A stretch of DNA of 64,000 nucleotides, from positions 186,001-250,000 of the forward strand of contig CANMFM010000007.1 in assembly GCA_947497175.1 (NCBI GenBank). Direction: 5' to 3'. Shown one piece after another: positions 4,541 to 19,171 of this stretch (position 1 is the first letter of the stretch; every line of letters starts with the position of its first letter). Position numbers and translations under genes: made by a program. The notes beneath the pieces were generated by a model. That model had not been told where the DNA came from. It ran no database searches and saw only the letters and a list, made by a program, of their open reading frames with translations. Source of the stretch: an uncultured Aquimarina sp. Its GTDB lineage: Bacteria > Bacteroidota > Bacteroidia > Flavobacteriales > Flavobacteriaceae.

Positions 4541-7438
4541 ATGAACCTGTATGCTTTACTTATCGGAATAAATGAATATGAATTAAGTCCACTAAATCAG
4601 TGTGTTAATGATGTACAAGAATTTGAAAAGTATCTCAATACTCTGAGTAACATTTATGGAACAATTTCGATTGAAAAACTTCTGGATAAAAAAGCTACCA
4701 AAATAAATATCATTACAACTATTACCACCTTTTTGAATAAGGCCAATGATACTGATGTAGCTTTTTTTTATTATAGTGGTCATGGTACCTTAGAAAACAG
4801 TTCTGGTAGATTTAGTGATGTACATACGGGCACAATAGAATGTTTGGTATGTTATCACGATGAGCATGCCAATGAAAATTTTTTATTGGCTGATAAAGAG
4901 TTACGCTATTTATTTTCGAAACTCAAAAATGATCCTCACCTGGTTACTGTCTTTGATTGTTGTCATTCTGGTGATATGGTTAGGTTACTTAGCAATCAAA
5001 CTGACACAACAAATTATAGGCAAAGAAAACTAAGCACTATATTTCCCTCAAGAAAATATGAAGATTTTATTTTCTCTAATGAAATTGATGAAAAACGTAT
5101 TAGGTCATCACAATTATCCTCTTTGATTCCTTATAAAAACTCGGTAAATATTTCGGCATGTCTTTCATCAGAGTCTTCCTGGGAAAATCATAAAGGTGGT
5201 GTTTTTACACGATTTCTTTTGCAACTTTTGAAAGCAAAGGACAGTAATTTACATTATCTGGATATTGCTAAATGGGCAAAAATAAGCTTGAAAGATATTA
5301 CTAGTAAAAAACAAACACCAACAATTAGTGTACAAGGATCAGGAAAAATGGATCATTATAGCCCTTGGCTTCATCTTTATCCCGGTCAACCTCAAATTGA
5401 TCAGGGTCAGATTTTTTACAACAATAAAAATGGTTGGTACTATAATAAGGGCCAGTTGTTTGGTATTAAAGAAGGTGCTAAAATCACTATTCAGATAGAA
5501 AACGATAAAACTTTTACTACAGAGATCATCAAAGTAAGTCTTGAAGATTCTTTAATTGCTGATCCCATAGAATCTGGAATTACATTAGACTTCAAAAAAT
5601 CTTATTCCGTAATTACGGAGACCGTTTTTAACTCATTAGACATTCATATATTCAATCTCGATCAAGATACTCATGCCCAAAAGCATATTACCAACACAAT
5701 AAAGGATATTGTTAATATAAGCATTTCAACGGTAGATAGCGCTGATTTCTTTGTAATCATATTTAATCAAACCGTATATATAACTCTACCTTCTGACGTA
5801 TATCGACCTTTAGCAAAGCAAATAGATCTTTTAAAATTTTCAGAAGAAATTGTACATAAAAGATTAAAAAATCAATTAGAATCCTTAGTAAAATGGAATT
5901 ATTACAGCACCTTAATAAATCCAGACGCAGGCTTCATTGTTATTCCGATTAAAGTTGAAATACAAATTGACGACAGCCAACAATGGATCGATGTAACTAA
6001 TTCTGATCTTGATCTTGAAACCATTCATAATAAGTATACACAAAGTGGCGAGTATTATCAGAAATTTAAAATTAAGGTTTCAAATGTCTCTAATGAAGAT
6101 GTTTTTGTTTCTGCGTTACTTCTAAGTTCTGACATCGCTATTGCAACGGACCTTTTTGATAATATGTCCAAAAAACTTAAGCCACAAGAAGCTGTCCTGT
6201 TTTATGAACATCGTAAAACCCCTCTATCCTATTGGTCATTAGATGCGTATAAAGAAATTTATAACTGGAAACACGATTGGTTGTATTACAAATTCATTGT
6301 AACTAATCAAGAAGACATCACACCGATTATTCCCGATATAGCACAACACCCGCTATCCCCTCCTATTACACATCATGGAAATTTAATGGGACTTGGAGCT
6401 GTAGATGATTTAACTGTAGAGAACAATAAGTGGGATGTTTATACTACCCAGCTTAGACTGCACAATCCTAGCTATAACATTATAGGTGAAAAACTACTCC
6501 AAAATTGGGACTGGTATGCAAATAATGAAATTGTGGCTCCTTTTATAAACTCATTATATACTTCAAAAAGACAAAACGGATTTATTTTTAATACAGTGAA
6601 TCTACCTAATGCCACTGGAGATATAGATGTTAATACACGAAATGTATCTGGATTTAAATTGAAACTTGGTAATTATTTTGATGATAAATGCAGATATCGA
6701 AGATTCAAAAAATCCAAAAAGATGTTCCCGCATTTACCTGTAATTGTTGCTGAAGGAGATTCATGGTTTTTATTTCCCTTTTTGGTGAAAGACACTCTTG
6801 ATTATGTAATGGAAAAATATCCTTTGCGAAGTATTGCTGCTGCAGGAGATGAGATACAAAATTATAGAGATAGCGGTCAACTACTTAAAGAAATAGAACA
6901 CGAACGTCCCCGGTATGTTCTTATTAGCGGCGGTGGTAATGATGTTATAGGTCCGGAGATTGAAGACATTCTTATACCAGGATTAGCCTCTGGATTAGAG
7001 CCCGAAAAGTACTTAAATGAAAAACATAAGAAAAAAATGGATCAACTGTGGGGGCATTACAATTACTTTTTTAACAGAATCTCAGAATTTGATTTTGTAG
7101 AGCATGTATTTATACACGGTTATGATTATGTACTAGCTGATTTGGATAAAAAAACCATTAAAAATGGTTGGGTCAATAAATATTTGATTAAAAAAGGAAT
7201 AACGGTAATAGAAGATCGATCCAAAATAATTCAATATCTCATTGATACTTTTAATACGTTGTTAGAAGATGTTACTCAAAAGCATGCCAATGCCACCTAT
7301 TTAGATATGAGATCCTTAGTTAATAGAGACGAATGGTATGATGAAATACACCCAAATGATGAAGGGTTTGCCAAAGTTGCTCAAAAATTTTTAAACGCTA
7401 TTAATCAATTAGAATATATAGATCATGAGAATATGTAA
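4541..7438 (+). CDS. Caspase-like (C14) peptidase fused to a C-terminal SGNH/GDSL hydrolase domain
   Basis: N-term YALLIGINEY; His81 in FYYSGHGTLE and Cys141 in VFDCCHSGD; C-terminal SGNH blocks GDSW (Ser741), SGGGNDVIG and DEIHPNDEGF. Confidence 0.88.
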   Translation: MNLYALLIGINEYELSPLNQCVNDVQEFEKYLNTLSNIYGTISIEKLLDKKATKINIITTITTFLNKANDTDVAFFYYSGHGTLENSSGRFSDVHTGTIECLVCYHDEHANENFLLADKELRYLFSKLKNDPHLVTVFDCCHSGDMVRLLSNQTDTTNYRQRKLSTIFPSRKYEDFIFSNEIDEKRIRSSQLSSLIPYKNSVNISACLSSESSWENHKGGVFTRFLLQLLKAKDSNLHYLDIAKWAKISLKDITSKKQTPTISVQGSGKMDHYSPWLHLYPGQPQIDQGQIFYNNKNGWYYNKGQLFGIKEGAKITIQIENDKTFTTEIIKVSLEDSLIADPIESGITLDFKKSYSVITETVFNSLDIHIFNLDQDTHAQKHITNTIKDIVNISISTVDSADFFVIIFNQTVYITLPSDVYRPLAKQIDLLKFSEEIVHKRLKNQLESLVKWNYYSTLINPDAGFIVIPIKVEIQIDDSQQWIDVTNSDLDLETIHNKYTQSGEYYQKFKIKVSNVSNEDVFVSALLLSSDIAIATDLFDNMSKKLKPQEAVLFYEHRKTPLSYWSLDAYKEIYNWKHDWLYYKFIVTNQEDITPIIPDIAQHPLSPPITHHGNLMGLGAVDDLTVENNKWDVYTTQLRLHNPSYNIIGEKLLQNWDWYANNEIVAPFINSLYTSKRQNGFIFNTVNLPNATGDIDVNTRNVSGFKLKLGNYFDDKCRYRRFKKSKKMFPHLPVIVAEGDSWFLFPFLVKDTLDYVMEKYPLRSIAAAGDEIQNYRDSGQLLKEIEHERPRYVLISGGGNDVIGPEIEDILIPGLASGLEPEKYLNEKHKKKMDQLWGHYNYFFNRISEFDFVEHVFIHGYDYVLADLDKKTIKNGWVNKYLIKKGITVIEDRSKIIQYLIDTFNTLLEDVTQKHANATYLDMRSLVNRDEWYDEIHPNDEGFAKVAQKFLNAINQLEYIDHENM

Positions 7439-8261
7439 AAATGACATAACGGATCAAATACGAGATTTGTTTGATGCCAATCCGCTTAGAATTCCTGAGG
7501 CAAGAATACAACCCATGTGTATGCTCGAAATACAAGATCATAAACCAAAATATCTTGGAGAGTTCAGGTTTTTGGTCAAAAATGGATTTAACCATCCAAT
7601 TCAGGTAAATACCTCGCCTGTAGCACAAATATCTAATGTAAAAACTAAAAAAATTGATTTCAAAATTGGTTTTGATATTCTGGGTAACTTCATTAAGGCT
7701 TTTGGTTTAGATCCTGCCGCTGTGAGCGCATCGATCAAAGGGACTAAGAAAATGTCGTTTTCTTTCGGTAATGTGGTCAGAAAATATATTGACACCCTAG
7801 AATTAGGTCATATTTTAGTCGCTAATGATATTAAGGGGGATCCAGAAAATATATTTATCAAAGAATTTTCAGAAAAAAAAGAGGTTACGCTGGCGCTAAT
7901 TACTGATATTCTTACAAGTACCGATTTTTCACTTGCTACCTATAAAGACAATACTACAAATGCAGAAATTAATATTCCGCTCATTCAGGAATATTTAGCA
8001 AACCTTGATACTAAACTAACCATCGAAAAGATATCAGATAATGAAATAAAGTTCAAAGGTGATACGCCTCTTACTTATGCATTTACCTGTGTAGAAATTA
8101 ATATAGATCCTACTACTGGAAAATTCTCGAGAGGACAATGGCTTGATAACATTCGTTCGGTTAAAGGTAGTACGACAACGAGTACTGCTACAGAACAGCT
8201 AGAAATACCGAAATTATTGCTTGATGATAATCAAGCAAATCCCTTATTGATTGACTTTTAA
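7425..8261 (+). CDS. Candidate bacterial gasdermin (pore-forming protein)
   Basis: Family-like pattern: N-term Cys4 (MRICKND), RIPEARIQPMCMLEIQ, IDFKIGFDILGNFIKAFG, TKKMSFSFGNVVRKYIDTLELGHIL, LALITDILTSTDFSLATYK, GDTPLTYAFTCVEINID; short C-terminal tail; overlaps a caspase gene by 14 nt. Confidence 0.75.
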   Translation: MRICKNDITDQIRDLFDANPLRIPEARIQPMCMLEIQDHKPKYLGEFRFLVKNGFNHPIQVNTSPVAQISNVKTKKIDFKIGFDILGNFIKAFGLDPAAVSASIKGTKKMSFSFGNVVRKYIDTLELGHILVANDIKGDPENIFIKEFSEKKEVTLALITDILTSTDFSLATYKDNTTNAEINIPLIQEYLANLDTKLTIEKISDNEIKFKGDTPLTYAFTCVEINIDPTTGKFSRGQWLDNIRSVKGSTTTSTATEQLEIPKLLLDDNQANPLLIDF

Positions 8262-8278
8262 CACCTAAACATAAACCC

Positions 8279-10063
8279 ATGAAAGAATTTTTTGTTGGAA
8301 TATTTGAAAATGATGCAGAGGCTCCACTTACATATTTGGATGATGAACGCAAAGCCATCGATGTTCTTTTATTAAAAGAAAAAGAAATATTCAGTAAAGA
8401 GATCATCCTCAATGAAGGTATCGATGGTTTTATTAATAAACTACAATTGTTGACTAATGTAATGACTGTATTTCATTTTAGTGGACATCACAATGACGAT
8501 GATGAAGCTATTAAATTAAGTGATGAAATCTTTAATAACAAAGGCCTTATTGAAATTTTGAATAATGCTCCAAAATTAAAGATGGTTTTCATTAACGGAT
8601 GCTCTAGTCAAAAAATTGTTGATGCCTTACATAACGTGCCTATCGTAATTGGAACCAAAACGCCCGTATATGATCATTTTGCAAAGACATTGTCTAACAG
8701 GTTTTATGAATTACTATTAAATGAGAAAGACAACATCAATACCGCAGAAAAAATTGAATCTATATTCAATCAGGCAAAGGGCTTCCAACAGGGGCATTAT
8801 CAACATGCTGTAACTACAGAAAGAGGCCCGATGGCGGCAGATGATATTGATACTAAAATAAACAACTATAGTTTCAAAATCAATAAAGAAGCACATGATT
8901 TTGAATTAAGGACTATCTATTATCCCGATCCAGATAACTTTCCGGTTAAGAATCGTTTTCAAAACCTGCTCGACGAGATAAAACAAGAAGAAGGTCTTAA
9001 AGAAGATTTGTACAAGTATTATCCCTACTTCTTATGTATTCATTTAGAAATATTATCTGATTTTCATGATATCAATAACAATATTTATCAAGAATTAAGC
9101 AAAGAACGGTATTGGGTGATTCGAAGTATGTTTAAAGAGTTTCTTAATTTTCTTAAATTTTCTGCATACTCTATTATTTGGTCGATATCAAAAAGAGATC
9201 ATAACTTTAGAACCAAACTAAGTAGTCAACTAAAAGAAATTCTCAGAGAAAATCTGGAAATCGGTTGGGAGTCGCATGTACAGGACAAAATTACTGAAGA
9301 TCTTTTTTTTATTTACAAGAATATCCCAGACGAATATCTGATAAAAAATACCCTCTGGGTCGAATTAAAAGCATGTGTTATACAAAATAGAGAATTATTT
9401 AAAGATGTTTCTGATTTTTTCTCATCACACCTGGAGCATAATCAAAATAGTAAACATGAGTATATTAAAACTGAACTTTATCTTGAAAAATTCTTAAGAA
9501 GCTTTACGTTTTTAAGATCCTTAGGTATAGAATCAATCTACGATGTATTCTATAATCAATTTCGATATGATAATCAACGCTCTTATATCATCAATAAATC
9601 GTATTATCCTGTTAGTAAAAGACCAACGGCATTAGATGATAAAAAAAGTGAAATTTTTGAAGTTACCGATAATGAAACCCTTCTAGATATTGATATACAT
9701 TCAGTATATATCTGTACAACCAAAAATAAAACCGGAAAACCTAAAAGGCAATTAAACCTTTCTCCTTTTTATCTTGATGTCAATTCTACATCGGTAGCAA
9801 AAGATAAAATAAAATTGTACTACCTGGATCGTTATTCTGAAGCGACAGAAAAATTAATCTATAAAGAAGTAGTCAATGCTAAAGTAGGAAAAGAAAGCAT
9901 GAATAATAAGAAAAAGTTAGGAGACGAAATTGAAGTGCCGTTAGATGAAGAAATGATTTGGGCCCTACTTAAAGATGGTAAAAAAAATATCATTGAGATT
10001 GAAGAAAAGAAGAAAATACGTGATCATTTTGAATACATAAAGAATTTAATTTCTCATTCTTAA
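8279..10063 (+). CDS. CHAT-like caspase-clan protease with large C-terminal region
   Basis: MTVFHFSGHHND (His70/71) and MVFINGCSSQKIVDAL (Cys108) followed by VPIVIGTKTPVYDHFAKTLSNRFYELLL, typical CHAT pattern. Confidence 0.75.
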   Translation: MKEFFVGIFENDAEAPLTYLDDERKAIDVLLLKEKEIFSKEIILNEGIDGFINKLQLLTNVMTVFHFSGHHNDDDEAIKLSDEIFNNKGLIEILNNAPKLKMVFINGCSSQKIVDALHNVPIVIGTKTPVYDHFAKTLSNRFYELLLNEKDNINTAEKIESIFNQAKGFQQGHYQHAVTTERGPMAADDIDTKINNYSFKINKEAHDFELRTIYYPDPDNFPVKNRFQNLLDEIKQEEGLKEDLYKYYPYFLCIHLEILSDFHDINNNIYQELSKERYWVIRSMFKEFLNFLKFSAYSIIWSISKRDHNFRTKLSSQLKEILRENLEIGWESHVQDKITEDLFFIYKNIPDEYLIKNTLWVELKACVIQNRELFKDVSDFFSSHLEHNQNSKHEYIKTELYLEKFLRSFTFLRSLGIESIYDVFYNQFRYDNQRSYIINKSYYPVSKRPTALDDKKSEIFEVTDNETLLDIDIHSVYICTTKNKTGKPKRQLNLSPFYLDVNSTSVAKDKIKLYYLDRYSEATEKLIYKEVVNAKVGKESMNNKKKLGDEIEVPLDEEMIWALLKDGKKNIIEIEEKKKIRDHFEYIKNLISHS

Positions 10064-10065
10064 TT

Positions 10066-13000
10066 ATGCCACACAGAAAAATCATATCCCCTTTTAAGTT
10101 CCTCGATTCTTATCAAAAAAAGGATTATCACAGCTATTTTGGAAGAGATAAAGAAAGTTTGGCACTCTTTAACCTTTATAAAGATTCGACAATAATGATT
10201 TTGCATGGTCCTTCGGGATCGGGTAAGACGAGTTTAATCTATTGTGGTTTGCTAAATAGAATTAGGGAAGACAAAAAAATAATTAGCATTCGTAGAGATG
10301 ATAACCTTATTAAGTCTATCAAGAAAAAGCTTTTTGTACATTTTGGCGAAGGAAATTGGCCGGGTGATTCACCCTCTAAATTACTAGACGATTTTTATTC
10401 TTCACATTCAGATTTAAACAGAATTCTGGGATTTATTGAGCATATAGAAGCATTAATGCTTGATGTGGAAGAAAAAATAATAGAACGCACTAGAAATAAA
10501 AGAAAGGTTAATCAAACTCAACCAGAACAGTTTACAGAAGCTGAGGCATCAGGCAATAACGAACAAGATGATCAATATATTATCTCAAAATATAAAGAAC
10601 GATTACAAAAATTTAGTTCTGAAAGAAAAGAACTTCTCGGAAAATTAAAGGAAAAGAATGAGCAAATAGGTGACATTTCTGCATCATTAAACAGGTATTT
10701 TACCAATGCCAGGACTAACAATGCTGGTATATCATTTGCCCCGTTAATCATTTTTGATCAGTTTGAAGAACTCTTTGTACACGGTACAAAAAGAGAAATC
10801 GACAAGTTTGGATTGTTCTTAAAGCTACTTTTTAATCATAAAATACCGTTTAATATTATTATATCTCTACGCGAAGAGTATTTTGGGTATCTCGATCAAT
10901 TACAATCTTACATTCCTCATATTTTCTATAAAAAAATACGCCTTGCACATCCAAATAAAGAAAGCATCAAAAATATTATAGAAAAATCATTCCAAAAGTT
11001 TAATATAAATCAATACGTAGGTCGTACGGATGAAAAATTATCTGATATTGAAAAGAATGATAGGATAGAATTAATACTTGATCAAATTAAAATCAAAGAT
11101 CATGGATCCATGAGTTACCACCTTCCTTTTTTACAAGTATATTTGGATCGATTATATAAAATAGATTATTACAGAACGTATGGAGGAGAACATTCTGTAA
11201 AAGAAGATGAAACGCTGCCGCCCCTAGAATTTAAAAAACATGAAATCACAGAATTTGGTTCTATCGAACATGTATTAGAAAGTTATATTCGCGAAATTAA
11301 CAACAAAATCATTCGTAATACCGATAATAAGCTCAATAACAAAATACAACACAAAGACAGTATCATTAAATTTTTAAGACATTTTAAAACTAAAGATGAT
11401 TTAAAAAAAAGAGTGCCTATACAAATTGAAAGAGAAAACTATTATAGCATAGAAAATCAAAAAACTCTTACCAAAATTCAAACAGATATATGGGGAGATA
11501 ATAGCCCGGCATACAATGACACGATTTCAGAAATCATTAATGAACTTAAAGAGAAAGGAATTCTAAGTGTAAATACAGGTTATGCTGAGTTAAGTCACGA
11601 TATTATTGCAAAAGTGATTAGTAACATACGAACTGAAGATGATTTCAGATCTTTAATAAAGAAGGACTTTATTTCTTCTTTTGACATTTATGAAGACACC
11701 AATGATGAGGGTGATTTACTCTCTGCGCAGCAGATTGAACGAATGAAAACGTGTTTGCAGTATTTACTAGAAGACGAAAATACAGAGCTGTGTAATCTTA
11801 AAAAACAATATTACGAAAAAAGTATAGAAAAAAATGAAAGAGACATACGTAATCAAATTAGACAAGAAAGAAAAGTTAAACGCTACACCATCTATGGTGT
11901 TATCACTTTCGGTTTAACAATATTAGCATTTTTATTGACTGGTCAATTACTAAAAGTAAATTTAGAAAAAGATATAATGCACCTGCTTGTCAACGCTAAT
12001 CAAGCATTGAATATTGACAGAACAAGTTCTTTCAACTACATCAAAAAAGCAGAACAGATTTATGAAGCAAAATTTTGGAATTGTATAAAAATGTTCTGTT
12101 CGACAGATGATGAGAAATCAAATAATGAATTTCTTGAAAAAATGAAAACTAAGATATTGAGAGAACATGATCAATATCCATTTTATCAAACAAGCATAAA
12201 CTTGATCGATACGGCTTATACAGTTGAAAGCGATACTATCAAGATGACTAAAACACGGGTGGCTTCAGGAAATCCGGATTTGCTATATATTTTCGCATTA
12301 TCTAAAAATAATAAATTCAATATATGGGAATTAAATTATAAAACTCCAAATGAGAAAGGTAGTACCGTTAGCATTGAGGGAAACGATAATATCGTAAATT
12401 TTGAACCTTTTAATTTTAATAAAGACCTCAACCTTCTTCTTGTTAAAAAGACTAATAATTCCTTATTAGAACTAGGGCTATATGATATCAATTGTAAACA
12501 GATAGAAAATTTTGAGAAGATTGAAATACCTTCTAACAAAATACACGTAGAACATTTAAATGGGAACGTATTTCTTCTTGGGTATGATAACATTATTAAG
12601 AAAGCTACTTTTATAAAAAATGATAAAGCAGCTATAGAATTAATAGATACGTTAGGCGATACTATCCACGAAATAAAGAGTTTAGAAGGTGACAATAATT
12701 TTGCGGTTCGATATGGTACTAACAAAATTTATGTTCAAAGAAACAATACAACCATCAGGAATATATTTGATAAAGAGAGTGAACATGATATAAAAAACAG
12801 GGAAATACTATCTTTTAATAGTAAAAATAAGGACACCCTGCTTATAGGACTGACTCAGGAGATATTAGTATATGACCTAAATGACAATACATCCTACAAG
12901 CATATGGTTCATGATAAAAATATAGAAACCATAGATTTTAACAATAACGGCGATATGCTTATAGGAAATAGAGAAAATGGAATTAATTTATGGACCAATA

Positions 13001-13326
13001 AAAATGTACTTAAAAAACAATTTATTGGTCATAGCGCTCCTGTTTTTAATGTTTCTTTTGTTAAAGTTAAAGAAAATCCAAACTTTGTTATCACAAGTAG
13101 TATCGATCAAACCCTCAAAATTTGGAATATTAAACCCATCCGAAGCAATATTAAAAACCGAATAGATGATTTGGAGTTCAAAAAAGAGGTTACGTCAAGA
13201 GCCATGATACAAGAAAAAATTATAGACACAATGCAGTATAAAAGTGACATTCCTGAGTTTGTATATAATTGGCTATACTATCAAGGTAATAAACTTTCTA
13301 AAAACTCTAACTCAAAAAAACTTTAA
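10066..13326 (+). CDS. nSTAND NTPase with TM helix and C-terminal WD40-like repeats
   Basis: YFGRDKESLALFNLY; Walker A GPSGSGKTS; Walker B-like PLIIFDQFEELF; TM YTIYGVITFGLTILAFLLTG; WD40-like IGHSAPVFNVSFVKVKENPNFVITSSIDQTLKIWNI. Confidence 0.88.
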   Translation: MPHRKIISPFKFLDSYQKKDYHSYFGRDKESLALFNLYKDSTIMILHGPSGSGKTSLIYCGLLNRIREDKKIISIRRDDNLIKSIKKKLFVHFGEGNWPGDSPSKLLDDFYSSHSDLNRILGFIEHIEALMLDVEEKIIERTRNKRKVNQTQPEQFTEAEASGNNEQDDQYIISKYKERLQKFSSERKELLGKLKEKNEQIGDISASLNRYFTNARTNNAGISFAPLIIFDQFEELFVHGTKREIDKFGLFLKLLFNHKIPFNIIISLREEYFGYLDQLQSYIPHIFYKKIRLAHPNKESIKNIIEKSFQKFNINQYVGRTDEKLSDIEKNDRIELILDQIKIKDHGSMSYHLPFLQVYLDRLYKIDYYRTYGGEHSVKEDETLPPLEFKKHEITEFGSIEHVLESYIREINNKIIRNTDNKLNNKIQHKDSIIKFLRHFKTKDDLKKRVPIQIERENYYSIENQKTLTKIQTDIWGDNSPAYNDTISEIINELKEKGILSVNTGYAELSHDIIAKVISNIRTEDDFRSLIKKDFISSFDIYEDTNDEGDLLSAQQIERMKTCLQYLLEDENTELCNLKKQYYEKSIEKNERDIRNQIRQERKVKRYTIYGVITFGLTILAFLLTGQLLKVNLEKDIMHLLVNANQALNIDRTSSFNYIKKAEQIYEAKFWNCIKMFCSTDDEKSNNEFLEKMKTKILREHDQYPFYQTSINLIDTAYTVESDTIKMTKTRVASGNPDLLYIFALSKNNKFNIWELNYKTPNEKGSTVSIEGNDNIVNFEPFNFNKDLNLLLVKKTNNSLLELGLYDINCKQIENFEKIEIPSNKIHVEHLNGNVFLLGYDNIIKKATFIKNDKAAIELIDTLGDTIHEIKSLEGDNNFAVRYGTNKIYVQRNNTTIRNIFDKESEHDIKNREILSFNSKNKDTLLIGLTQEILVYDLNDNTSYKHMVHDKNIETIDFNNNGDMLIGNRENGINLWTNKNVLKKQFIGHSAPVFNVSFVKVKENPNFVITSSIDQTLKIWNIKPIRSNIKNRIDDLEFKKEVTSRAMIQEKIIDTMQYKSDIPEFVYNWLYYQGNKLSKNSNSKKL

Positions 13327-15725
13327 CCCACAATATGTAACTCATTAAAATTCTTTGGAACTACTAACATGTTGTGGTCTTTATCAAATTCAATGTCTTG
13401 TAACGAAACAACAACATTATCAATCTCAATCTCTTTAATTATGAAAGGTAGTCCAATCAAACTGATTCGTATCTTTTCATAATCAGTAATATAACTCCCG
13501 TTTTTATGTTGTTGAATTATGATTTCATTTTCTTTACCCGTAAAAGAGAAACTACGTAAACTATATCTACCTTTAGCATAATCATAACCGTCCTGGGCAT
13601 CTTCATATACTTTTGACATCTCTTTGTTTCCTAATTTGTAATACACTTCCAAGCATAACTCTTCAATACTTTTTTCGCCTACATATTGTTGTATTGGATA
13701 TTTTGGAATAATGGCACCTTCTTTAATAAATATAGGTATGATATCCAGATCAGCATCAACCCATTGCTCCATTCCTCCTTTTACATACTCTTGTGTCCAG
13801 TAATTGTACCAGTTCCCTCTTGGGATATACATACGTCTTCCTTTTGCATTAGGTTCTTGTACTGGGCAAACTAAAATTTGATTCCCAAATATAAATTCGT
13901 CTGTTCTATAATGTGTTTGAGGATCGGTCTGATCAAATAGCACCAGTGGTTTTAGCATGGGGATCCCTTCTTGGGCATACTCCCAAAACATGGTATATAA
14001 ATAGGGTAGTAATTGATATCGCAATTCAACAAACTTTCTAGTTACATCTACAACTTCATCGCCAAAAGTCCAGGGTTCTTGATTGCCATGATCACCAGAG
14101 GAATGAGTACGACAAAACGGATGAAATACCCCTAGTTGTATCCATCTTGCATATAATTCTCCTGTGGGATGCTCTGCAAAACCTCCAATATCACTTCCGG
14201 TAAACGACATACCACTCATACTCATACGTTGCGCCTGAATATTGGCTATCCATAAGTGCTCCCATGTGGCCACGTTATCTCCAGTCCAGGAAGAAGTATA
14301 GCGTTGTGCTCCAGAGTATGCAGATCTTGTGATAATAAAGGGGCGTTTTGGATACGCAAATTGTTTTACCCCCTCGTATGTAGCTCTTGCCATTTGTGTT
14401 CCATAGATATTATGTGCTTTTCTATGACTGCAAGGATTTCCGTCGTAGTTATGGCGAACATCATCTGGAAATGTTTTACCGGGAACCTCCATAACGGCAG
14501 GTTCATTCATATCGTTCCACACCCCCTTTACTCCTATTTCATCAATTATTTCCTTAAACAATCCCGACCACCATTCTCGTACTTCGGGATTTGTAAAATC
14601 TGGAAAGTAGCATTCTCCTGGCCATACTTTTCCTCGCATATATGGCCCATCTGCACGTTTACAAAAGTAGTCTTTATCCATAGCCTCTTTGTATACCCAA
14701 TATTGATCATCAATCTTGATCCCGGGATCTATAATGACTACTGTTTTAAATCCATCTTCGGCCAATTCGGTAACCATTCGTTTTGGATCCGGAAAATATT
14801 CTTTATTCCAGGTAAAACACCTAAATCCATCCATATAATCAATATCGAGATAGATTGCATCACAAGGAATTCTAAGTTCTCTAAATTTACGTGTAACTTC
14901 TTTTACTTTATTCTCAGGATAATAACTCCATTTACATTGATGATATCCCAATGCCCAAAGTGGAGGCAATTCGGGCTTTCCGGTTAAATCTGTATAGCGC
15001 GTAACTACATCTTGCATGTTTGGCCCGTAAAAGAAATAATAATTCATTTCTCCTCCCTGAGCCCAAAAACTTGTTACGTTACGTCGTTCCTGACAAAAAT
15101 CAAAATAGGTTCTAAACGTATTGTCAAAGAAAATTCCATATGCTCGATCTTCATACATTCCTATATAAAATGGAACACTTTTGTATAATGGATCCTGGTC
15201 TTTACCAAACGCATATTGATCTGTAGCCCAATTCTCTATTCGTTTACCCTTAAGATTAAGGTGCATCGGCTTATCACCCAAGCCATAGTAGCACTCTCCT
15301 TGAGGAGCCGATTTACTCATTTTTACAATATTCCCTCCATATTCATAACTTTGTTCCCAATGAAATCCCCAATCATCTTTACATATTACATTGTTATTCA
15401 AATCGTATATTGCGGTATGTAGATTACTTTTAGCAATTACTATTTTAATGCGAGAAGTATGTATAGAATACTCTTCAGGATGCTCTTCAACTTCGAGAGT
15501 ACTGTATCCTCGGGCACCATCTTCACTTATGGCATATGAAAAATCTTTTTCAAAATTATTATCCGTTGCATATCGAAAACGAATCACACTTCCACGCAAA
15601 ACAGTAACCTGTAAAATAACCCCATTTTCTGTGTTAAAATTAATTTTATCTACATTTTGTGAAAAGGATATTATTCTACCCGGAAAAAGGTTTCCTTTTT
15701 GCTCTAGTTCTGTATTGATGATCAT
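13323..15725 (-). CDS. Glycoside hydrolase family 31 alpha-glucosidase
   Basis: GVWNDMNEPAVMEVPGKTFPDDV; RPFIITRSAYSGAQRYTSSWTGDN; ARWIQLGVFHPFCRTHS. Confidence 0.93.
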   Translation of the reverse strand: MIINTELEQKGNLFPGRIISFSQNVDKINFNTENGVILQVTVLRGSVIRFRYATDNNFEKDFSYAISEDGARGYSTLEVEEHPEEYSIHTSRIKIVIAKSNLHTAIYDLNNNVICKDDWGFHWEQSYEYGGNIVKMSKSAPQGECYYGLGDKPMHLNLKGKRIENWATDQYAFGKDQDPLYKSVPFYIGMYEDRAYGIFFDNTFRTYFDFCQERRNVTSFWAQGGEMNYYFFYGPNMQDVVTRYTDLTGKPELPPLWALGYHQCKWSYYPENKVKEVTRKFRELRIPCDAIYLDIDYMDGFRCFTWNKEYFPDPKRMVTELAEDGFKTVVIIDPGIKIDDQYWVYKEAMDKDYFCKRADGPYMRGKVWPGECYFPDFTNPEVREWWSGLFKEIIDEIGVKGVWNDMNEPAVMEVPGKTFPDDVRHNYDGNPCSHRKAHNIYGTQMARATYEGVKQFAYPKRPFIITRSAYSGAQRYTSSWTGDNVATWEHLWIANIQAQRMSMSGMSFTGSDIGGFAEHPTGELYARWIQLGVFHPFCRTHSSGDHGNQEPWTFGDEVVDVTRKFVELRYQLLPYLYTMFWEYAQEGIPMLKPLVLFDQTDPQTHYRTDEFIFGNQILVCPVQEPNAKGRRMYIPRGNWYNYWTQEYVKGGMEQWVDADLDIIPIFIKEGAIIPKYPIQQYVGEKSIEELCLEVYYKLGNKEMSKVYEDAQDGYDYAKGRYSLRSFSFTGKENEIIIQQHKNGSYITDYEKIRISLIGLPFIIKEIEIDNVVVSLQDIEFDKDHNMLVVPKNFNELHIVG

Positions 15726-15911
15726 AGTTATACTTTCTTTACGCTTGAGTATGGTAAAAAAACGATTTCTTACTCAATTTAAAAATCATTTTTAGGACAA
15801 TTTATTAAGAAAAATCTACGAAAACGTTTGCATAGACAAGGAATTAACACTTGTTTAAATAATATATAGGTTATTTTAATATACTCAAAGTATCCCGAAA
15901 CCTTTTCAGTA

Positions 15912-17822
15912 TTATTTTTGAGTTTTAAATATCACTGCTCCTAATGGTGGAATCGATATTTCGGCAGAAAATGATCGGTTATTCCACTGCTGGGTTTCAA
16001 TTTCAATATCTTGAAAATCAGATCCCCCACTTCCCCCATATTTTTCTTCATCACTATTAAATAACGCTATTAATTTTCCTTTAAAAGGTACTCCGATACG
16101 ATAGTTTGCTCTTGGTATTGGAGTAAAATTACAGGCGATTATTAATCCTTTTTCTTCATCATTTCCTTTTCTAATGTACGTAATTACAGAGTTGTTATGA
16201 TCATCATAATTTATCCATTCAAAACCAGATACACTAAACTGTTTCTGATACAATGCAGGATATTGTTTATACAGTATATTAAGATCTATAATTAGTTTCT
16301 TTATTCCTTTATGATAATCATATTGCAATAAATGCCAATCGAGACTCTGTTGAAAGTTCCATTCTTCACGTTGTCCAAATTCTGCGCCCATAAATAAAAG
16401 GTTCGTACCCGGATGTGTAAACATATACGTATACAATAAGCGTAGATTGGCAAATTGTTGCCATTCATCACCAGGCATTCTTCCAATGAGACTTTTTTTA
16501 CCATAAACAGCCTCATCATGAGATAACGGAAGCATAAAATTTTCTGTAAATGCATATGTCATGCTAAATGTTAAATCATTTTGATGGTGTTTTCGATAAA
16601 TAGGTTCTTTAGCCATATACTGTAAGGTATCGTGCATCCAACCCATCATCCATTTCATACCAAAACCTAAGCCTCCAAGATATGTAGGTTTTGAAACCAT
16701 TGGAAATGATGTAGATTCTTCGGCAATAGTTTGCACATCAGGAAAACTGGCATACACTTCTTCATTCAGTTCTTTAATAAATGCTATGGCGTCCAGATTT
16801 TCTCTACCTCCATGGATATTAGGTTCCCACTCCCCCTCTTTACGAGAATAATCCAGAAAAAGCATTGATGCAACTGCATCTACCCGTAAACCATCTGCAT
16901 GATATTGATCCAACCAAAATATCGCATTGCTAATTAGAAAACTTTTTACTTCGTTTCTGCCGTAATTAAAAATAAGACTCTTCCAATCAGGATGATATCC
17001 TTTTTTTTTGTCGGGATGCTCGTAGAGACAGGTTCCATCAAAAAAACCTAAGCCATGTGCATCTTCCGGAAAATGTGAAGGAACCCAATCCAGAATAACA
17101 CCAATATTATTTTGATGTAATGTATCGACGAATAGTTTGAACTCTTCTGGGTATCCAAAGCGAGAAGTTGGTGCAAAATATCCTGTAAGTTGATATCCCC
17201 AAGAAGGATCATATGGATATTCCATAACTGGCATTAGTTCTACATGAGTAAATTCCATTTCTATTACATAAGAAACCAATTCATCTGCAAGTTCTACATA
17301 GGATAATGATCGATTTTCTTCAACTCTTTTTTTCCAGGAGCCCAGATGCACTTCATATACAGAAAACGGAGCATCAATGGCATTATACTCTTTCCGCTTT
17401 TTCATCCAAGATGCATCTTTCCACTTATAAGTATCTGCCCAAACAATAGATGCCGTTTTAGGAGGATGTTCACATCGCCGTGCATAGGGATCTGCTTTTT
17501 CTGTAGTGATGTTGTTATGATGTGATTCTATAAAATATTTGTAAATGCTTCCTTTTCCTGCTCCGGGAATAAACCCCTCCCAAATACCAGATTCGTCCCA
17601 TCGTACATTTAGCTTATGCTCCTCTTTATTCCAATAATTAAAATCTCCAATAACCGAAACAGATTTGGCAGACGGTGCCCACACGGCAAAATACGTTCCT
17701 GCAATTCCATCTAAGGTAGTGATATGAGCGCCAAATTTATCGTACAAGCGATAATGTTTTCCTGCTTTAAAAAGATTAATATCAAACTCTGTAAATCGAC
17801 TATATGAAAGTACTTTAGGCAT
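15912..17822 (-). CDS. glgB: 1,4-alpha-glucan branching enzyme
   Basis: GVILDWVPSHFPEDAHGLGFFDGT; DGLRVDAVASMLFLDYSR; FTENFMLPLSHDEAVYGKKSLIGRMPGD. Confidence 0.95.
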   Translation of the reverse strand: MPKVLSYSRFTEFDINLFKAGKHYRLYDKFGAHITTLDGIAGTYFAVWAPSAKSVSVIGDFNYWNKEEHKLNVRWDESGIWEGFIPGAGKGSIYKYFIESHHNNITTEKADPYARRCEHPPKTASIVWADTYKWKDASWMKKRKEYNAIDAPFSVYEVHLGSWKKRVEENRSLSYVELADELVSYVIEMEFTHVELMPVMEYPYDPSWGYQLTGYFAPTSRFGYPEEFKLFVDTLHQNNIGVILDWVPSHFPEDAHGLGFFDGTCLYEHPDKKKGYHPDWKSLIFNYGRNEVKSFLISNAIFWLDQYHADGLRVDAVASMLFLDYSRKEGEWEPNIHGGRENLDAIAFIKELNEEVYASFPDVQTIAEESTSFPMVSKPTYLGGLGFGMKWMMGWMHDTLQYMAKEPIYRKHHQNDLTFSMTYAFTENFMLPLSHDEAVYGKKSLIGRMPGDEWQQFANLRLLYTYMFTHPGTNLLFMGAEFGQREEWNFQQSLDWHLLQYDYHKGIKKLIIDLNILYKQYPALYQKQFSVSGFEWINYDDHNNSVITYIRKGNDEEKGLIIACNFTPIPRANYRIGVPFKGKLIALFNSDEEKYGGSGGSDFQDIEIETQQWNNRSFSAEISIPPLGAVIFKTQK

Positions 17823-17899
17823 ATAACAAGTTTAATTAACTATATTTCTCTAAACATTTTGCAGAGTCTATATTTCTATCTATTAATGTACTACTGAGA

Positions 17900-19171
17900 T
17901 TAAAGCTTAAAGCCATCGGGAATAACAGAACGACTTTTAATAACAATTATTCCATCTTTGATAACGTAAGTATCTTCTTCGGTATCTGATAAATGCTCGC
18001 CTCCTACAATAGTTACATTATTACCAATTCTGGCATCCTTGTCAATAATAGTGTTTTGGATCAGACAATTTTCGCCAACCCCAAAAGATGGTATTTGATG
18101 TTTGACATTCTTTTCTAATTGATCAATACTCTCATAAGAATTACTACCAATCATATAGGAATCTCTTATTATCGTATTTTTTCCTATTCTAGAGCGTATA
18201 CCAATCACAGAACGTTTTATTTCTTTAGCATTAATAATACATCCCTCGGCAATCATAGATTTATCTAACAATGTACCTGATATTTTTGAAGGCGGTAAAA
18301 TTCTTGGTCTTGTAAGAACACTAGAAGAATTATCAAACAGATCAAACTGTGGTACATCGTCTGTTAAATTAATATTGGCTTCATAAAAGGCTGCAACATT
18401 ACCAATATCTGTCCAATAGCCTTCATACTGATAAGCTAAAACTTTATGAGTATCAATCGACTGCGGTATGATTTCTTTTCCAAAATCTATAGTATCTGGA
18501 TTTGATAAGATGTCTACCAACAGCTGTCTATTAAAAACATAAATTCCCATTGAGGCTAAATAGTGTCTGTTTTCGTTCTTCATTTCTTCACTAACCTCTG
18601 ATTCCCATCCTTGTAATGTATCTAGGTCGGGTTTTTCTATAAAGGAAGAAATAAAATTTTTATCATCCGTTTTTAAAATACCAAATTCAGTTGCTTCTTT
18701 TGATTTAACAGGTAATGTTGCTACAGAAATATCGGCACCATGGTTGATATGATTATGTATCATTTCATTAAAATCCATTTTGTACAATTGATCCCCAGAA
18801 AGAATTAGTGCATACTCAAACTCATGATTTAGCAGATGATGCATGGATTGTCGTACAGCATCTGCTGTACCTTGATACCATGTTTTGTTATCTGGAGTTT
18901 GCTCTGCTGCTAAAATATCCACAAAAGCATCACTAAATATACTAAAGGCATATGTATTCTTTATGTGTCTGTTTAAGGAAGCAGAATTAAATTGTGTGAG
19001 CACAAACATCCTTTTAATATCACAATGAATACAATTGGAAATAGGAATATCGACCAATCTATATTTTCCAGCAATAGATACTGCTGGCTTAGAACGTTTC
19101 TCTGTAAGCGGGAATAATCGGGTACCTTGACCTCCTCCCAAAATAATTGCCAGGACTTTTTTATTGATCAT
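17900..19171 (-). CDS. glgC: Glucose-1-phosphate adenylyltransferase
   Basis: LAIILGGGQGTRLFPLTEKRSKPAVSIAGKYRLVDIPISNC; C-terminal left-handed beta-helix. Confidence 0.95.
   Translation of the reverse strand: MINKKVLAIILGGGQGTRLFPLTEKRSKPAVSIAGKYRLVDIPISNCIHCDIKRMFVLTQFNSASLNRHIKNTYAFSIFSDAFVDILAAEQTPDNKTWYQGTADAVRQSMHHLLNHEFEYALILSGDQLYKMDFNEMIHNHINHGADISVATLPVKSKEATEFGILKTDDKNFISSFIEKPDLDTLQGWESEVSEEMKNENRHYLASMGIYVFNRQLLVDILSNPDTIDFGKEIIPQSIDTHKVLAYQYEGYWTDIGNVAAFYEANINLTDDVPQFDLFDNSSSVLTRPRILPPSKISGTLLDKSMIAEGCIINAKEIKRSVIGIRSRIGKNTIIRDSYMIGSNSYESIDQLEKNVKHQIPSFGVGENCLIQNTIIDKDARIGNNVTIVGGEHLSDTEEDTYVIKDGIIVIKSRSVIPDGFKL

Follow-up and report, generated by a model that had tools for sequence, protein, structure and literature searches.

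A four-gene gasdermin operon of Aquimarina with a predicted SGNH/GDSL domain fused to its caspase

Bacterial gasdermins are restrained by a C-terminal peptide of ~20 residues, and adjacent caspase-like proteases cut them after Leu or Arg, ~20 amino acids from the end (PMC9612521; PMC10989679). The N-terminal Cys is palmitoylated in most bacterial gasdermins, and a Lysobacter multigene operon with inflammasome-sensor-like domains defends against phage (PMC9612521; PMC10989679). Some gasdermin operons come with lysozyme and phospholipase genes (PMC9612521), and in some CARD-NLR variants phospholipases and endonucleases substitute for the gasdermin (PMC13236601). Here we describe a four-gene operon in a stretch of 64,000 nucleotides from an uncultured Aquimarina sp. 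(hereafter the window). The second gene, open reading frame (ORF) 2, encodes a bacterial gasdermin. Taking all of the evidence together, a gasdermin-operon suicide system is the best explanation of this locus, with a probability of about 0.86. We suggest that the operon is a compact, inflammasome-like suicide system that likely kills phage-infected Aquimarina cells.

The gene order is a C14 caspase fused to an SGNH/GDSL domain (ORF1), the gasdermin (ORF2), a CHAT protease (ORF3) and a protein that combines an nSTAND1 NTPase, a transmembrane segment and WD40 repeats (ORF4). Like the caspase/CHAT and NLR-like gasdermin systems of Runella and Lysobacter (PMC9612521), the operon brings together a gasdermin, caspase-like proteases and a STAND/NLR-like ATPase. 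It differs from them in its pair of C14 and CHAT proteases, in its nSTAND1-WD40 protein and in the fusion of SGNH/GDSL to the C14 caspase. With the CARD-NLR systems (the Lysobacter gasdermin system; Caulobacter LypABC, PMC13236601) it shares a STAND/NLR-like ATPase and a protease that control a lethal effector. Unlike those systems, it holds a gasdermin and a lipase-like module together and has no trypsin-like protease, for which no Pfam match was found among the four operon proteins. The same four proteins gave no Pfam match to a CARD or death-fold domain, a difference that comes from Pfam without a search aimed at CARD or a structure-based search.

The gasdermin and its operon

ORF2 spans positions 7425 to 8261 of the plus strand and encodes 278 amino acids, with an ATG start, no internal stop and one stop at its end. 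These coordinates are exactly those of the original prediction, which had been made from the sequence alone, and the peptides quoted there (MRICKND, RIPEARIQPMCMLEIQ, IGFDILGNFIKAFGLDP, KKMSFSFGNVVRKYIDTLELGHIL and GDTPLTYAFTCVEINID) are all found in the translation. That prediction had further proposed that ORF2 is a bacterial gasdermin, and profile searches agree. ORF2 matches the PADLOC bGSDM model (PDLC02986) over residues 3-254 with E=3.2e-63 and scores 207.9 bits against the NCBIfam prok_gasdermin model (NF051890; cut-off 100), a model with zero matches across 14 control genomes. When ORF2 alone was searched against the PDB with phmmer, the bacterial gasdermins 8sl0 (3e-20) and 7n51 (5e-20) were recovered, and a six-sequence profile recovered the same structures at 9e-29 and 1e-28. 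Pfam gave no match to ORF2, with DUF58 at E=0.13 representing noise. On the PADLOC, NCBIfam and PDB matches we rejected a chance reading frame and another kind of pore-former. Judged by homology, ORF2 is a bona fide bacterial gasdermin and adds a new member to a family that public models already recognize.

To examine conservation we used 12 orthologous gasdermins, comprising that of the window and 11 others, all from Aquimarina and 72-89% identical. All 12 begin with MR[IV]C, so that the Cys4 that had been predicted at the N terminus (codon 7434-7436, plus strand) is invariant in the set. An equivalent Cys is also present in more distant gasdermins, namely those of loci L028 and L029, which hold a diverged second copy of the operon, and of L046, from another genus. 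In L031 and L045 it is shifted by N-terminal extensions. By analogy with described family members, Cys4 is probably acylated, and we regard it as a candidate S-acylation site.

The operon is tightly packed, and its four-gene order is identical in 11 orthologous loci. ORF1 and ORF2 overlap by 14 bases, ORF2 and ORF3 are separated by 17 bases and ORF3 and ORF4 by 2 bases. ORF1 (positions 4541-7438, plus strand, 965 amino acids) was assigned from Pfam, PADLOC and its motifs. Its N-terminal part matches Pfam Peptidase_C14 (1.7e-26, residues 4-264) and the PADLOC caspase model (1.3e-38), with a catalytic dyad of His81 in YYSGHG and Cys141 in DCCHSG. ORF3 (positions 8279-10063, plus strand, 594 amino acids) is a CHAT-type caspase-like protease with a further C-terminal part. 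The PADLOC 'chat' match (9.4e-56) spans nearly the whole protein, Pfam Peptidase_C25 matches weakly (0.005), and the dyad consists of His70 in HFSGHH and Cys108 in NGCSS. PADLOC places caspase and CHAT models beside bGSDM, and ORF1 and ORF3 match these models. ORF4 (positions 10066-13326, plus strand, 1086 amino acids) is the predicted sensor or activator. It matches Pfam nSTAND1 (1e-23) and, in its C-terminal repeats, WD40 (4.2e-6), and it carries a Walker A motif, GPSGSGKT, at residue 48 and a transmembrane segment at ~608-629, where hydropathy peaks at 1.93 (residue 611). Both protease dyads and the Walker A motif are kept in 12/12 loci.

Core, linker and tail of the gasdermin

Described bacterial gasdermins such as 7n51 and 8sl0 resemble ORF2 in their full-length profile match, N-terminal Cys and adjacent caspase-like protease genes. 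They also resemble it in having a short C-terminal tail and no large C-terminal domain, which in ORF2 takes the form of a short conserved tail after a variable linker. We quantified this arrangement as the mean pairwise column identity over the 12 aligned orthologues, with 5000 column shuffles as a control. Column identity is 0.83 over the core (residues 1-244). It falls to 0.24 over a hypervariable linker (residues 245-260; positions 8157-8204, plus strand) and to 0.22 over residues 245-258. The least conserved 14-residue window of the entire gasdermin starts at residue 246, and 0/5000 shuffles were as low. The linker also contains 3/4 gap positions of the alignment, and its high variability within the genus distinguishes ORF2 from the described proteins. 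The Ser/Thr-rich segment of the linker, KGSTTTSTATEQ, corresponds to residues 247-258, and the protein ends with the 20 residues LEIPKLLLDDNQANPLLIDF (259-278). Conservation returns to 0.83 in the tail (residues 261-278, IPKLLLDDNQANPLLIDF; positions 8205-8258, plus strand), which is the predicted inhibitory peptide. Its motif, D[DE][ND]xxNPLLI, is retained in the gasdermins of L028, L029 and L046, which are 46-48% identical. The short C-terminal tail that had been proposed to follow the linker is therefore supported by its conservation (0.83 versus 0.22) and by the persistence of its motif in distant gasdermins. This pattern, together with the position of the indels, is what is expected of an inhibitory peptide that fits the core and is carried on a flexible, tolerant loop. 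With core and tail nearly frozen and the loop free to vary, these 12 close gasdermins amount to a natural experiment, both for finding the cleavage site and for learning how a peptide of ~18 residues restrains a pore former.

Where the gasdermin is cut is less clear. It had been proposed that cleavage falls in the Ser/Thr-rich linker or just after it, which stands as an unproven guess, as residues 246-258 contain no residue conserved among the 12 orthologues. Going into the linker, Arg244 (codon 8154-8156, plus strand) is the final invariant position, and a basic one; it is Arg in 12/12 orthologues and Lys in the more distant gasdermins of L028, L029 and L046. In the DCCHSG motif of the ORF1 C14 caspase, an Asp lies two residues ahead of the catalytic Cys. 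In metacaspases an Asp at that place belongs to an acidic S1 pocket, and these enzymes cut after Arg or Lys. Because R244 is invariant, the loop is variable and the C14 caspase has this Asp, R244 is a good candidate P1 residue, and conservation suggests that it ranks no lower than the sites in the linker. R244 lies 34 residues from the C terminus, beyond the ~20 reported for known bacterial gasdermins.

A site nearer to the one originally proposed would be compatible with the variable loop if the protease reads an exosite on the gasdermin core and cuts inside or at the border of the linker, at a position that need not be conserved in sequence. Eight-residue cleavage sites transplanted into other bacterial gasdermins stayed uncut, which suggests exosite recognition (PMC9612521), and position 247 of the linker is Lys or Arg in 9/12 orthologues. 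However, sequence-specific cutting would normally preserve P1, and it is R244 that is invariant while the loop positions vary; the Asp of DCCHSG likewise fits an S1 pocket that is acidic and receives a basic P1 residue. We therefore consider exosite-directed cutting in the linker a serious contender whose chances are somewhat short of even.

The SGNH/GDSL domain of the caspase

The C-terminal part of ORF1 (residues ~700-965; positions 6638-7435, plus strand) went unmentioned in the original prediction. Motifs, Pfam and a structural model assign it to the SGNH/GDSL hydrolases. Pfam Lipase_GDSL matches residues 764-949 with 24.2 bits (cut-off 23.6), and Lipase_GDSL_2 matches below its cut-off (1.3e-5). 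The residues of the SGNH blocks are Ser741 (GDSW in AEGDSWF), Gly769, Asn800 (GGGND), and Asp934 and His937 (DEIHP). These motifs occur in 11/12 ORF1 orthologues and are invariant in the outgroups L028 and L045; the whole domain is missing in L010. The predicted structure has moderate confidence (predicted template modelling score 0.69), and its closest folds are GDSL esterases and PAF acetylhydrolase. Foldseek placed the GDSL esterases 8ik1 and 7e16 at the top (2e-5 to 5e-5, TM-score ~0.5-0.6, ~14% identity), and a search of the domain against PDB sequences gave no significant match. The domain thus resembles EstL5-like esterases and PAF acetylhydrolase in its block I Ser, II Gly, III Asn and V Asp/His and in its modelled fold, and differs from them in being fused to a caspase and in its ~14% identity to the best fold matches. 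These data indicate that, as modelled, the ORF1 C terminus has the SGNH fold and catalytic blocks, from which esterase or lipase activity is predicted.

Relatives of the SGNH module, ~29-34% identical, are found on rhizobial and cyanobacterial plasmids (L055 8722-10638; L056 7761-10238; L057 1468-3456; L058 8725-10635; L059 7776-8783). Their architectures vary: the module lies N-terminal to a caspase, the reverse of the order in ORF1; it is fused to Amidase_3 and an M15 peptidase; it lies C-terminal to a trypsin domain; or it stands alone, as a separate gene next to a trypsin-endonuclease gene. We detected no gasdermin at these plasmid loci. Because the module is swappable among caspase, trypsin and amidase partners, and because phospholipase variants of related systems have been reported, it is a likely second effector. 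We suggest that the SGNH/GDSL domain is plausibly an accessory effector with lipids or the envelope as its target.

An alternative is that the domain is a thioesterase that strips the acyl group from Cys4 of the gasdermin, tuning pores or switching them off. E. coli thioesterase I (TesA) is an SGNH enzyme, and 1jrl, which we take to be its structure, appears far down the Foldseek list for our model. The domain is also fused within a gene that overlaps the gasdermin gene. However, relatives of the domain either share a protein with N-acetylmuramoyl-L-alanine amidase and M15 peptidase or adjoin murein hydrolases or nucleases, at loci where no gasdermin was found, a pattern that fits a general envelope-directed effector, and two gasdermin operons (L010 and L046) do without the SGNH domain. 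We thus regard a role in deacylation as unlikely.

If the domain is instead an effector, the operon could encode a two-pronged death programme, in which a protease-released pore is paired with an SGNH enzyme that degrades lipids or the envelope and is part of the same protein as the activating caspase, one sensor firing both. The SGNH module would then be a widespread and little-remarked effector of protease-based conflict systems. We offer this broader proposal tentatively, as possible and still open to considerable doubt. What makes the operon unusual is the lipase-like enzyme fused to a protease, a dual-effector architecture that is little described. Here such a domain shares one protein with the caspase in a gasdermin operon, and on the plasmids of unrelated bacteria it is fused to caspase, trypsin and amidase. 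This makes it testable that some gasdermin systems bear a second lethal enzyme beside the pore. We did not find a caspase-SGNH fusion beside gasdermin and CHAT in the literature searched; the primary gasdermin papers and their supplements lay outside that search, and we do not claim absence.

Distribution, evolution and proposed function

The gasdermin is carried by 10/55 Aquimarina genomes. In all ten, the operon lies between an M48 peptidase gene and a GH31 gene, which are ~9-11 kb apart as read from coordinates. In 26 other genomes the site is empty, with the same two genes less than 350 bases apart by the same reading. A scan of viral contigs with a diverse gasdermin profile found nothing. 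At one further locus (L033 1704-8697, genome G399) the site holds another cassette, with an S8 subtilase, peptidoglycan-binding proteins and unknown genes, which gives the M48-GH31 gap the appearance of a hotspot for insertion.

A tree built from the gasdermin and CHAT genes conflicts, with high support, with that of three flanking genes. At L004 and L012, a tract at ~11200-18800, which runs from the middle of CHAT across the sensor gene and reaches into GH31, is mostly 95-99% identical, and the region upstream is mostly 70-89% identical. This tract indicates that the sensor half was exchanged between species and, together with the tree conflict, that recombination within the genus moves segments of the operon. 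We further compared nonsynonymous divergence (dN) in close species pairs. For the whole gasdermin dN is ~0.06-0.10, and for the WD40 half of ORF4 it is 0.41-0.62 in 3/4 pairs, the exception being the recombinant species pair. In those three pairs no other large region in the comparison reaches the dN of the WD40 half, which diverges more than any other part of the operon; the gasdermin linker, of 16 residues, is alone in coming near it. Ratios of the dN/dS type were left uninterpreted because synonymous sites are near saturation. That the WD40 half evolves fastest is what arms-race selection on a sensor would be expected to produce, and a fast propeller with a conserved effector would suit a sensor-effector arrangement.

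We propose the following sequence of events. ORF2 would be made as an inactive precursor, in which residues 1 to ~244 form the pore-forming domain and the last ~18 residues fold back and block it. The membrane-anchored nSTAND1-WD40 protein would detect a phage-linked signal through its fast-evolving propeller and switch on the caspase-like proteases ORF1 (C14) and/or ORF3 (CHAT). One of these would cut the gasdermin between core and tail; the likeliest places are the vicinity of R244 and the loop that follows it. The tail would then leave, the core would assemble membrane pores and the infected cell would die, and the SGNH/GDSL domain of ORF1 may add envelope damage.

Several points weigh against this proposal. 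The operon is confined to a single chromosomal site, and no gasdermin relatives turned up when plasmid and phage collections were searched at the protein level. Phage is a presumed trigger, and with two caspase-like proteases in the operon either could be the one that cuts. The tail, PKLLLDDNQANPLLIDF, differs from the described proteins in showing no detectable sequence similarity to the C-terminal part of 7n51 (the phmmer alignment ends at residue 227). AlphaFold2 produced no usable model of the gasdermin (mean predicted local distance difference test score 31, from a shallow alignment of 12 close Aquimarina orthologues), and the fold assignment therefore comes from sequence homology, with docking of the tail a prediction.

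The same gasdermin could also serve regulated lysis for another purpose, such as the release of phage-like particles. A CARD-NLR-like system of Caulobacter, related to gasdermin systems, controls lysis for the release of gene transfer agents (PMC13236601), the L045 operon adjoins phage-tail-sheath-like genes, and all ten carriers hold the operon at one fixed site. However, the operon is present in only 10/55 genomes, its site is empty in 26, and the WD40 sensor evolves fastest. Patchy presence and a fast-evolving WD40 region are easier to reconcile with a defence gene that cells can do without than with a house-keeping role in lysis, making regulated lysis quite improbable in comparison with anti-phage suicide.

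Two Aquimarina genomes carry, at another place, a diverged second copy of the operon in which the gene order is kept (L028 1108-10456; L029 750-10098). Its identities are 47-48% for the gasdermin, 38% for the caspase-SGNH protein, 27% for CHAT and 28% for the STAND protein. At L010, an extra CHAT-TPR gene (16608-18131) follows the sensor gene, and the caspase is without an SGNH domain.

Beyond Aquimarina, related operons were found in two genera of its family, at L045 and L046. L046 has the four genes in the same order, without the SGNH domain. L045 (2297-9708) has a caspase-SGNH and gasdermin pair followed by a weakly CHAT-like gene, with a MoxR-like AAA ATPase, a gene for an unassigned 385-amino-acid protein and a caspase-LRR gene in place of nSTAND1-WD40. 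The core and tail of its gasdermin lie in different reading frames; a tail-less class of gasdermin was rejected, as the tail is present in the other frame, indicating a frameshift or sequence error. The phage-tail-sheath-like and related genes beside this operon (14372-16580) were recognized by eye from the translation. In other genera of this family, solitary proteins of 233-242 amino acids score above the cut-off of the gasdermin model (L030 9661-10362; L032 9462-10163; L047 6363-7064; L048 6659-7387); they are without an N-terminal Cys, and no neighbouring protease was recognizable. At L031 (3921-14414), in a different arrangement and without SGNH, a distant gasdermin (25% identity) lies near C14 caspase and CHAT-like genes.

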